Shown here one piece after another: positions 3,332 to 36,994 of a stretch of DNA of 41,264 bases. Made by a program: the position numbers and the translations under genes. This DNA is from Caldimonas tepidiphila (GTDB lineage: Bacteria; Pseudomonadota; Gammaproteobacteria; Burkholderiales; Burkholderiaceae_C), in NCBI RefSeq assembly GCF_003569765.1, contig NZ_QXMG01000050.1, positions 1 to 41,264 of the forward strand, given 5' to 3'. A model generated the notes under the pieces. That model was not told the DNA's origin. It ran no database searches and saw only the letters and a program-made list of their open reading frames with translations. Within the stretch, counting starts at the first letter, position 1. Every line of letters begins with the position of its first letter.

Positions 3332-3706
3332 ATGGACGCTTCCGTCATTCCCGCCACGCCCGCCGCGGCGCCGATGCCCGACCCGCTCGTCTTCACCGGC
3401 CATGCCGCGGCGAAGGTCGCCGAGCTGATCGCCGAGGAGGGCAACCCGGCGCTGAAGCTGCGGCTCTACGTCACCGGCGGCGGCTGCTCCGGCTTCCAGT
3501 ACGGCTTCGCCTTCGACGACGCGGTCGCCGAGGACGACACGCAGATCCGCAGGGACGGCGTGACGCTGCTGGTCGACGCGATGAGCCTGCAGTACCTCAC
3601 GGGCGCCGAGATCGACTACGAGGACGGGCTGGAGGGCTCGCGCTTCGTGATCCACAACCCGAACGCGCAGACCACCTGCGGCTGCGGCAGCTCGTTCTCG
3701 ATGTGA
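3332..3706 (+). CDS. erpA: A-type Fe-S carrier, ErpA-like
   Basis: A-type carrier that accepts clusters from the scaffold and delivers them to apoproteins. The protein has 124 residues and the three A-type cysteines: one in [12 protein letters not shown] and two in [11 protein letters not shown] at the C-terminus. The sequence [24 protein letters not shown] resembles ErpA more than IscA. The ATG at 3332 was chosen; a GTG at 3323 in the same frame would add three residues. The upstream ribosome site is weak. It lies between iscU and a second A-type gene, an unusual doubling in one isc operon. Confidence 0.85.
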
Positions 3707-3752: not shown

Positions 3753-4076
3753 ATGAGCGTGTCCCTCACCCCGGCCGCGGCGCGGCATGTGCAGAAGTCC
3801 CTGGGCAAGCGCGGCAAGGGCCTGGGCCTGCGGCTCGCGGTCAAGACCAGCGGCTGCTCCGGCTACGCCTATGCGCTGGAGTTCGTCGACGAGATGAATC
3901 CCGAGGACCGGTGCTTCGAGCATCACGGCGTGAGGATCGTCGTCGATCCGCGCAGCCTGCCGCTGCTCGACGGCACCGAGCTCGACTTCGTGCGCGAGGG
4001 TCTCAACGAGGGCTTCAAGTTCAGCAACCCGAACGCCCGCGCCAACTGCGGCTGCGGCGAGAGCTTCAGCGTCTGA
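3753..4076 (+). CDS. iscA: A-type Fe-S carrier IscA
   Basis: Second A-type carrier of the operon. It is 107 residues long, the usual length of IscA, and has [17 protein letters not shown] and the C-terminal [10 protein letters not shown], which give the three conserved cysteines. The motif [19 protein letters not shown] is typical of IscA. It follows the ErpA-like gene by 46 bases with AAGGA before the ATG, and precedes hscA where hscB would stand in the Escherichia coli order. Confidence 0.92.
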
Positions 4077-32741: not shown

Positions 32742-33707
<966 letters not shown>

Positions 33708-33848: not shown

Positions 33849-33864
33849 TGTTCGAAACGCGACA
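33849..33864. promoter_or_regulatory. NifA upstream activator site
   Basis: TGTTCGAAACGCGACA is a perfect TGT-N10-ACA site. It is about 114 bases upstream of the predicted nifH start and about 200 bases upstream of the divergent start, so it may drive both operons. Confidence 0.8.
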
Positions 33865-34031: not shown

Positions 34032-34046
34032 TGGTACGTTCGTTGC
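34032..34046 (+). promoter_or_regulatory. Sigma-54 promoter of the operon ending in draTG
   Basis: TGGTACGTTCGTTGC matches TGGYACG-N4-TTGC with correct spacing. The predicted start is near 34058, about 47 bases before the ATG at 34105. It implies that the unknown gene, the ArsC-like gene, draT and draG are expressed under nitrogen-fixing conditions. Confidence 0.75.
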
Positions 34047-34104
34047 GAGGGAGGGGGCCGTGAACAGGACCGCGGACCGCTTCCGCATCGACGAGGGAAA
34101 TCCC

Positions 34105-34713
34105 ATGACCATGACCATCGAGAAGACCGCCATCGAGGACACCGCGTTCGCGCGGCTGCAGAGGGAGGGGCGCCTGCTCAACCCGGTGCTGAAGGCGCCG
34201 ACGAGGAAGCCCGGGCGCTTCGGCTTCCGCGGCGAGCTCGCGCTGCGCTTCGCGCCCAAGCTCGCCGACGAGGCCCGCCCGCCGGAGCTGAGCTGCGACC
34301 AGGTGATCGCGGTGGCGCAGGCCGGCGACGCGAAGCTGCCCTTCTTCGCCGGCTACCTGCTGTCCTTCGAGCACCTGAAGGACGTGGCCGAGGTGCTCGG
34401 CGACACGCTCTCGCCCGAGGGCAGGTACTTCCTGTTCTGCAACAACATCGACCTGTCGAAGAAGTACCGGGTGGCGTGGGGTGAGGCCACCTTTCATGTG
34501 CTGCCGATCGACGAGGCCACCGTCTACAACGAGCTGCTCGAGCTGCTCTATCTCGAGAAGAACGACCTCAAGAAGCTGGACACCGCCGGCAAGACCGACG
34601 CGGTGGCGGATGCGGCGCTGAAGTTCGAGGCGGGCTTCGAGCCGCTTTCCTACGAGGACGGGCTGAAGCTGATGGGCCCGGTGCGCAATCCGAACGAGAA
34701 CCGCCCGGTCTGA
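34105..34713 (+). CDS. Unrecognised protein, sigma-54-driven, divergent from nifH
   Basis: I do not recognise this 202-residue soluble protein. It begins MTMTIEKTAIEDTAFARLQREGRLLNPVLKAPTRKPGRFGFRGELAL; the centre reads LPFFAGYLLSFEHLKDVAEVLGDTLSPEGRYFLFCNNIDLSKKYRVAWGEATFHVLPIDEATVYNELLELLYLEKNDLKKLD, and it ends in NENRPV. It has one cysteine, no signal peptide and no membrane helix, and codon use like its neighbours. It is first in an operon with the ArsC-like gene, draT and draG, opposite nifH, with its own sigma-54 promoter. A nif-specific role, perhaps in nitrogenase protection or NifH modification, is inference. Confidence 0.85.
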   Translation: MTMTIEKTAIEDTAFARLQREGRLLNPVLKAPTRKPGRFGFRGELALRFAPKLADEARPPELSCDQVIAVAQAGDAKLPFFAGYLLSFEHLKDVAEVLGDTLSPEGRYFLFCNNIDLSKKYRVAWGEATFHVLPIDEATVYNELLELLYLEKNDLKKLDTAGKTDAVADAALKFEAGFEPLSYEDGLKLMGPVRNPNENRPV

Positions 34714-36033: not shown

Positions 36034-36043
36034 GGAGGTGACG

Positions 36044-36994
36044 ATGGCTGCGGGAGCGCAGGACGGGGGCGGCGACGCCGCGTGGCCGGGCGCGATCGAC
36101 CCGGCAATCCAGGACCGCGCGCTCGGCGCCTACCTGGGCCTGGCGATCGGCGACGCGCTCGGCGCCACGGTCGAGTTCATGACGCCGCGCGAGATCGCCG
36201 CGCGCCACGGCGTGCACCGGCGCCTGTGCGGCGGCGGCTGGCTGAAGCTGCCCGCGGGCGCGGTGACGGACGACACGACGATGGCGCTCGCGCTCGGCGA
36301 CGCGCTGCTCGCGGCGCGCGGGCTGGAGATGCGCCGCGTCGCCGAGGCCTTCGTCGCGTGGCTGCGCGCCGGCCCGGTGGATTGCGGCGACACCTGCCGG
36401 CGCGGCATCCGCCGCTACCTCGCCGACGGCAGCTTCAGCGGCCCGCCGAACGAGGGCGACGGCGGCAACGGCGCGCTGATGCGCAACCTGCCGGTGGCGC
36501 TGGCGACGCTGCACGCGCCGGCGCTGCTCGAGCCGTGGTCGCTCGCGCAGGCGCGCTTCACGCACCACCATCCGCTGTCGGATGCGGCCACCGTCGCCTT
36601 CGGCCGCATGGCGCAGGCGCTGGTGCTCGGCGAGCCCTTCGATCGGGTGCGCGGCCTGGCCGCCGCGCTGGTCGAGCGCCATCCGCGGTTCCGCCACACG
36701 CCCTGGCCGGGGCGCGCCAGCGGCTACGTGGCCGACACGGTGCAGACGGTGCTGCACCATGTCCTCTGCATCGACGACCCGGTGGCCTGCCTCGTCGCGG
36801 TCGTCAACCGCGGCGACGATGCCGACACCACCGGTGCGCTCGCCGGCATGCTGCTCGGTGCGCGCGCCGGCGTCGGGGCCTGGCCCCGCGAATGGCTCGA
36901 CGGGCTCGACGCGGCGGTCGCGCGCGGCATCAGGGCGCAGGTCCGGGCGCTGCTCGGACTCGCCGCCGGGCTGGGCGCCGCGGCGGTGCGCTGA
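36044..36994 (+). CDS. draG: ADP-ribosyl-[dinitrogen reductase] glycohydrolase DraG
   Basis: Dinuclear-manganese hydrolase that removes ADP-ribose from NifH and restores activity. The 316-residue protein has the ADP-ribosylglycohydrolase motifs GAYLGLAIGDALGATVEFMTP, AVTDDTTMALALGDALLAARG and NRGDDADTTGALAGMLLGARAG, which hold the metal ligands. ATG 36044 follows the draT stop by ten bases with GAGGAGG between; an in-frame GTG at 36038 would add two residues. Confidence 0.96.
   Translation: MAAGAQDGGGDAAWPGAIDPAIQDRALGAYLGLAIGDALGATVEFMTPREIAARHGVHRRLCGGGWLKLPAGAVTDDTTMALALGDALLAARGLEMRRVAEAFVAWLRAGPVDCGDTCRRGIRRYLADGSFSGPPNEGDGGNGALMRNLPVALATLHAPALLEPWSLAQARFTHHHPLSDAATVAFGRMAQALVLGEPFDRVRGLAAALVERHPRFRHTPWPGRASGYVADTVQTVLHHVLCIDDPVACLVAVVNRGDDADTTGALAGMLLGARAGVGAWPREWLDGLDAAVARGIRAQVRALLGLAAGLGAAAVR

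Follow-up and report, generated by a model that had tools for sequence, protein, structure and literature searches.

We find that the gene at positions 34105 to 34713 of the stretch of Caldimonas tepidiphila DNA analysed here (contig NZ_QXMG01000050.1, 41,264 nucleotides; hereafter the window, meaning that whole stretch) is a real gene of a conserved protein family that is linked to nitrogenase, and that the members of this family are encoded behind conserved signals recognizable as being of the NifA/sigma-54 type. The product of this gene, here called P0001, is probably a helper of nitrogenase. The gene, its signals and its neighbors in the window are as follows.

34105 to 34713, plus strand: P0001 gene, from the ATG at 34105 to the stop at 34713, encoding a 202-residue protein (22.5 kDa, pI 5.2)
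34093 to 34097, plus strand: ribosome-binding sequence GAGGG, seven bases ahead of the P0001 ATG
34228 to 34233, plus strand: codons for R42-G43 of P0001, invariant in 26 aligned members of both subfamilies
34570 to 34572, plus strand: codon for K156 of P0001, invariant in the same 26 aligned members
34681 to 34710, plus strand: conserved C-terminal tail VRNPNENRPV of P0001, from the alignment and the structural model
34032 to 34046, plus strand: predicted sigma-54 -24/-12 promoter of the P0001 gene, TGGTACGTTCGTTGC, TGGTACG-N4-TTGC, one mismatch
33849 to 33864, no strand assigned: NifA upstream activator site (UAS), TGTTCGAAACGCGACA, TGT-N10-ACA, common to nifH and the P0001 gene
33754 to 33768, minus strand: predicted sigma-54 promoter of nifH, TGGCACA-N4-TTGC
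32742 to 33623, minus strand: nifH, divergent neighbor of the P0001 gene
34755 to 35201, plus strand: gene for an ArsC/Spx-like nitrogenase-associated protein (TIGR01616), downstream of the P0001 gene
35200 to 36033, plus strand: draT (Pfam DRAT match from about 35251; position of the start codon approximate)
36038 to 36994, plus strand: draG (TIGR02662)

An initial annotation of this DNA, made from the nucleotide sequence, had described a 202-residue frame with a good ribosome site and codon usage, and this description is upheld by the GAGGG sequence, by a GC content over the three codon positions (0.66/0.39/0.97) like that of nifH (0.62/0.39/0.97) and by the existence of relatives. A contig search yielded 222 genome stretches encoding such relatives, and this conservation rules out a chance open reading frame. 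The downstream genes named in that annotation were recovered through matches to TIGR01616, Pfam DRAT and TIGR02662, and form with the P0001 gene a tightly spaced series on the same strand. Elsewhere in the window two adjacent IscA/iscN-like matches (3392-3697 and 3759-4067) perhaps represent a tandem duplication.

Within the window the regulatory motifs are unremarkable by themselves: 19 sigma-54 matches with at most two mismatches were found against 20.6 expected, which is not above chance, and four TGT-N10-ACA patterns against 1.8 expected. We accept the promoter and the UAS as genuine because they are conserved across related loci, and not on the statistics of the window. The comparison used 81 loci, namely the window's own copy and the best 80 of the 222 relatives; the counts omit 11 of these (ten with no usable nifH match and one with too long a region), and the window's copy is omitted from the promoter count (69 regions) and included in the UAS count (70 regions). 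A promoter scoring at least 10/12 faces the first gene opposite nifH in 68 of the 69 related regions (1.6 expected from dinucleotide shuffles), and one of the same quality faces nifH in 65 of them (2.2 expected). The former signal is present in 34 of the 35 regions in which a truncated-hemoglobin gene comes first and precedes the P0001-family gene, and in all 34 in which the P0001-family gene itself comes first. Of the 70 regions that separate nifH from the gene opposite it, 68 contain the UAS, against 5.9 expected, and two (L080 and L081) lack it. Hence both the sigma-54 promoter at 34032-34046, a one-mismatch match, and the NifA site at 33849-33864 that had been claimed to be shared with nifH find their counterparts in the related loci.

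The phyletic distribution of the family ties it to nitrogenase. A NifD-model match at E <= 1e-50, by which genomes were scored as NifD-positive, is present in 44 of 398 Pseudomonadota genomes, 41 of the 44 being over the model cut-off. The P0001 family occurs in 13 of these 44 genomes and in none of the 354 NifD-negative ones (p 6e-14), and all 13 carriers fall within the 41 genomes over the cut-off. A sample of 369 genomes of the class contained nine positives, the window's own genome and eight further ones; all eight have a NifD-model match, seven of them over the cut-off, the match in one (G625) being in two pieces on two contigs, and in four of the eight the P0001-family gene and NifD lie on different contigs. 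In the window's own taxonomic family (140 genomes; seven carriers; eight NifD matches, seven over the cut-off) seven of the eight NifD-matching genomes carry the P0001 family as against none of the other 132. The only NifD-positive non-carrier there, G796, has its nifD at the start of a 3.1-kb contig which does not reach nifH, and its P0001-family gene may simply be absent from the assembly. Over all samples, the 26 distinct carrier genomes all show a NifD-model match, the one in G754 (65% complete) being partial only and possibly NifE. The link to nif on which the initial annotation had staked its proposal is therefore what the genomes display, with 26 of 26 carriers matching NifD and no member in the 354 and 132 non-matching genomes. 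At the same time, 31 of the 44 NifD-positive Pseudomonadota genomes do without the family, which is therefore no general requirement of nitrogenase. An extra paralogue, roughly 41% identical to the member from Methylococcus, was observed in the NifD-positive relative G860 (L153, 8624-9172), with none of the nif genes of our panel within 18 kb.

The best 80 of the 222 relatives show 70-87% identity over the best segment and come mostly from Burkholderiales, judging by their titles, while the family as a whole is present in alpha-, beta- and gammaproteobacteria and includes a second subfamily (II), reached by profiles, at 22-29% identity to P0001. In 82 sequences (the same best 80 and the window's, counted twice) the length is 186-206 residues, the shortest being truncated by a contig end, and the C-terminus reads ENRPV in 81 and DNRPV in one; the nine aligned members of subfamily II end in G-[PA]-[VIL]. 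Besides the invariant R42, G43 and K156, the residues L24, L47, N114, E143 and K152 are nearly invariant in this 26-sequence alignment of the two subfamilies. No cysteine or histidine is conserved across these 26 sequences, which disfavors a metal site, and we accordingly reject the notion of a metal or Fe-S protein.

An AlphaFold2 model of P0001 (pLDDT 87.3, pTM 0.85) presents a confident domain of mixed alpha/beta type whose termini are poorly ordered, residues 198-202 having a pLDDT below 50. A Foldseek search of this model against the PDB and the viral models of BFVD gave nothing at E <= 0.001, and the model suggests a novel fold. At the sequence level, searches of Pfam, NCBIfam, PHROGs and PADLOC with P0001 matched nothing at E <= 1. 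A sequence search of the PDB yielded no credible match, the hits being nanobodies (E 0.18 and 0.94) and two unrelated chains (E 0.28 and 0.56), which we attribute to chance. A Pfam scan of the 26 diverse members touched eight families, each through a single member; the best of these, DUF7684 (E 0.04, one member of subfamily II), was rejected as homology on account of being a single-member match. A known phage or defense protein family was likewise set aside for want of any PHROGs or PADLOC match to P0001. The profile search and structure prediction that the initial annotation had proposed as checks thus ended in no Pfam match and in a confident model with no Foldseek match in the PDB; its inability to place the protein in a known nif family was shared by every library searched (Pfam, NCBIfam, PHROGs, PADLOC and the PDB), and strong similarity to a characterized non-nif family was likewise absent from these libraries.

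Published expression tables contain relatives of P0001, which figure there as 'hypothetical'. Paraburkholderia phymatum has two copies of the gene, the second lying divergent from a second nifH on pBPHY02 (L150, 11507-13436) and sharing 99% identity with its counterpart. In nodules formed by a nifA mutant of this species the transcripts of Bphy_7752 and Bphy_7807, which we assign to the family by locus tag, change by log2 -11.54 and log2 -11.11, respectively (PMC8305402, Table 1). These are the largest finite drops among the 142 symbiotic-plasmid genes listed; 11 further genes, entered as NA (zero reads), could have dropped even more, and the two read counts may not be independent because the copies are so nearly identical. 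In the same mutant the values for nifH, nifD and nifK are log2 -7.40, -10.05 and -7.67 (PMC8305402). In Bradyrhizobium diazoefficiens, bll1754, assigned to the family by synteny only, adjoins blr1755 (an iscN homologue) and blr1753 (a ferredoxin/Rieske-type protein), in the arrangement seen in Bradyrhizobium sp. BWA-3-5. Microoxia raises the level of its protein by log2 6.2, and in bacteroids its transcript is up 120.9-fold (PMC6515984); in a nifA mutant bll1754 is down by log2 4.8 (PMC4926349). It is not marked as a NifA+RpoN1 target in the table of PMC6515984. NifA-dependent expression that rises with nitrogenase is accordingly in print for relatives, and for P0001 it is predicted from the promoter motif. 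We found no report of a function, binding, mutant or biochemical result for the family in the portions of the open-access literature available to us. The role during nitrogen fixation that the initial annotation had proposed from the position of the gene draws good support from the NifD matches of all 26 carriers, the conserved promoter and the published NifA-dependence of the relatives.

Gene neighborhoods offer further hints regarding function. A divergent nifH lies upstream of the P0001-family gene in 71 of the 80 loci of the best relatives (out of 222), as it does in the window; of the remaining nine, five end too near the gene to be judged, while four (L031, L046, L047 and L062) have room and no nifH. 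A truncated-hemoglobin gene immediately precedes the P0001-family gene, in the same orientation, in 36 of the 81 loci (best 80 of 222 and the window), with 47-141 bases between the two matches; it was not found in the other 45, which include the window and some loci that end early. The Bac_globin assignment was confirmed by Pfam for the Methylococcus protein of our panel and for P. aromaticivorans, both outside the 81 loci and both annotated as 'group II truncated hemoglobin'. Beyond nifK, 24 of the 81 loci have a gene for an FeSII-like 2Fe-2S protein, which was not found in 57. This 2Fe-2S gene downstream of nifHDK, also seen in L119 (12007-12375), is related to the solved FeSII (Shethna protein II), with E 1e-34 for the Methylococcus copy. 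An ankyrin-repeat gene is the next panel gene downstream in 18 of the 81 loci. In Cupriavidus taiwanensis STM 8555 the P0001-family gene retains ankyrin and zinc-ribbon neighbors, with no nifH listed within 18 kb in a gene table that is incomplete. Among other recurrent genes, a small Zn_ribbon_8 gene lies downstream in L121 (9275-9517) and in 65 of the 81 loci, its P. phymatum representative Bphy_7750 being NifA-dependent (log2 -7.72; PMC8305402), and a SIR2_2-domain gene recurs in nif clusters (L118, 11809-12672, and 25 of the 81 loci), often adjoining nifT/nifS. In G364 (L138, 5890-6906), a genome of the same taxonomic order and a different family, draT itself is divergent from nifH and the P0001-family member is past nifEN.

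Taking these observations together, our tentative preference is for P0001 being a dedicated accessory protein of nitrogenase, which binds the enzyme and stabilizes or protects it in microoxic, respiring cells. Under this proposal, P0001 would be a cofactor-free, non-catalytic protein that binds a nitrogenase component, either the Fe protein or the immature MoFe protein, by means of R42-G43, N114, E143, K152, K156 and the conserved C-terminal tail. Once bound, it would stabilize or protect that component during the manufacture and use of the enzyme. Protection of NifH, one of the two roles suggested in the initial annotation, is possible, and the partner may be NifH or NifDK. FeSII is a protective partner of nitrogenase, and the FeSII-like gene shares the neighborhood in the 24 loci noted above; FeSII is a 2Fe-2S protein, whereas the P0001 family has no conserved cysteine in 26 members. 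We favor stabilization or protection because of the truncated-hemoglobin and FeSII-like neighbors, with a Rieske protein nearby in some loci, and we infer the link with oxygen from this gene neighborhood only. COX1 is present in all 44 NifD-positive genomes and so does not separate carriers from non-carriers of the family. A more elaborate form of the proposal, which we consider possible and yet rather doubtful, is that a protein with a fold new to the PDB, under top-tier NifA control in beta-rhizobial bacteroids and with truncated hemoglobin as its partner, keeps nitrogenase oxygen-safe or recoverable by docking through its free C-terminal tail.

Nearly as likely as protection, and so a serious if uncertain alternative, is that P0001 belongs with NifW, NifZ and NafH among the assembly (maturation) factors and would bind the immature MoFe protein or supply or shield its clusters, with no special link to oxygen. 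Subfamily II members do lie inside nif clusters: that of G064, for example, is flanked by nifENX and nifHDKT, and those of G006 and G014 are on the downstream side of nifB-fdxN-nifQ-draG. The Bradyrhizobium members of the family adjoin iscN-nifS-nifT-nifB. Such factors are also known, in that NifW, NifZ and NafH belong to the nif regulon and are reported to associate with the immature MoFe protein as it matures, and NafH is described as having no recognized deletion phenotype (PMC6016461). However, P0001 differs from them in gene position and in lacking a Pfam or NCBIfam match to any nif family, or a PDB match, and none of the evidence points to a particular step of maturation.

It is less probable that P0001 serves as an electron-transfer or redox partner of a nearby Rieske or 2Fe-2S protein, ArsC-like protein or nitroreductase. 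The gene order in Methylococcus (truncated hemoglobin, P0001-family gene, Rieske, small hypothetical, ArsC-like, nitroreductase, GlpE) and the adjoining Rieske gene there and in Bradyrhizobium sp. BWA-3-5 lend themselves to this idea, but the redox-type neighbors differ between lineages, cysteine and histidine are not conserved, and the searches matched no family or fold that binds nucleotides or flavins.

The initial annotation had also suggested control of the modification of NifH, in which case P0001 would cooperate with DraT/DraG, or regulate them, in NifH ADP-ribosylation. The tight same-strand spacing with draT and draG in the window, draT being the next panel gene in 51 of the 81 loci (best 80 of 222 and the window) and the presence of draTG after the P0001-family gene in many Burkholderiales are compatible with it. 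Against this, the neighborhoods examined in Paraburkholderia, Cupriavidus, Bradyrhizobium and Methylococcus showed no draTG (the plasmid gene tables are incomplete). DraT and the P0001 family are not co-distributed: among the 44 NifD-positive genomes, DraT is present in 7 of the 13 that carry the family and in 20 of the 31 that lack it (Fisher p 0.52). The survey of co-occurrence with nifH and draTG suggested in the initial annotation thus bears out the tie to NifD/nifH and not that to DraT; regulation of DraTG is rejected as a general role, for which it is unlikely, and we give the partnership with DraT/DraG very little credence.

Least probable of all is that P0001 is a passenger of little function linked to nifH: members in Burkholderiales loci as a rule sit beside nifH and many diazotrophs lack the family, but it is conserved across three proteobacterial classes, both P. 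phymatum copies are under very strong NifA control in the published table (PMC8305402), and the gene is retained in five NifD-positive genomes (G001, G625, G636, G666 and G685) in which the nif genes of the panel are absent from the surrounding 16-19 kb, save for one NifA-like match about 7 kb away, and NifD is matched elsewhere.

In position and regulation the known case most like P0001, as far as published descriptions allow comparison, is PnfA (PST1325) of Pseudomonas stutzeri A1501, whose mutant retains 23% of nitrogenase activity with an effect that depends on the oxygen regime (PMC2820453). PnfA is described as divergent from nifH, as are the P0001 gene of the window and its relatives in 71 of the 80 best of 222, and as having a NifA/sigma-54 promoter with a TGT-N10-ACA site, features which for P0001 are predicted from motifs; it is also reported to be restricted to diazotrophs, with its mechanism unexplained (PMC2820453). 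By the same description PnfA is set apart from the 22.5-kDa P0001 by its size of 31.7 kDa, and by a reported similarity to UspA/ETF-alpha (PMC2820453), which is absent from P0001 (Pfam, E <= 1) and from the weak matches of the 26 members. A Usp/ETF-type protein like PnfA was therefore rejected, the Pfam scan of the 26 members having no such family. The same paper mentions a further PnfA subfamily, comprising ten proteins with 20% identity (PMC2820453), so that a very distant relationship is conceivable. By analogy, P0001 may work like PnfA without being PnfA.

For the transfer of nitrogen fixation to other hosts it matters which genes of the nif regulon enable nitrogenase to operate in cells that respire oxygen, a question both open and practical. 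The P0001 family spans three proteobacterial classes, yet it is 'hypothetical' or undescribed in the records and published tables examined. Being tied to nitrogenase in every carrier tested and expressed like nitrogenase in two relatives, it offers a sharp candidate for such a gene.
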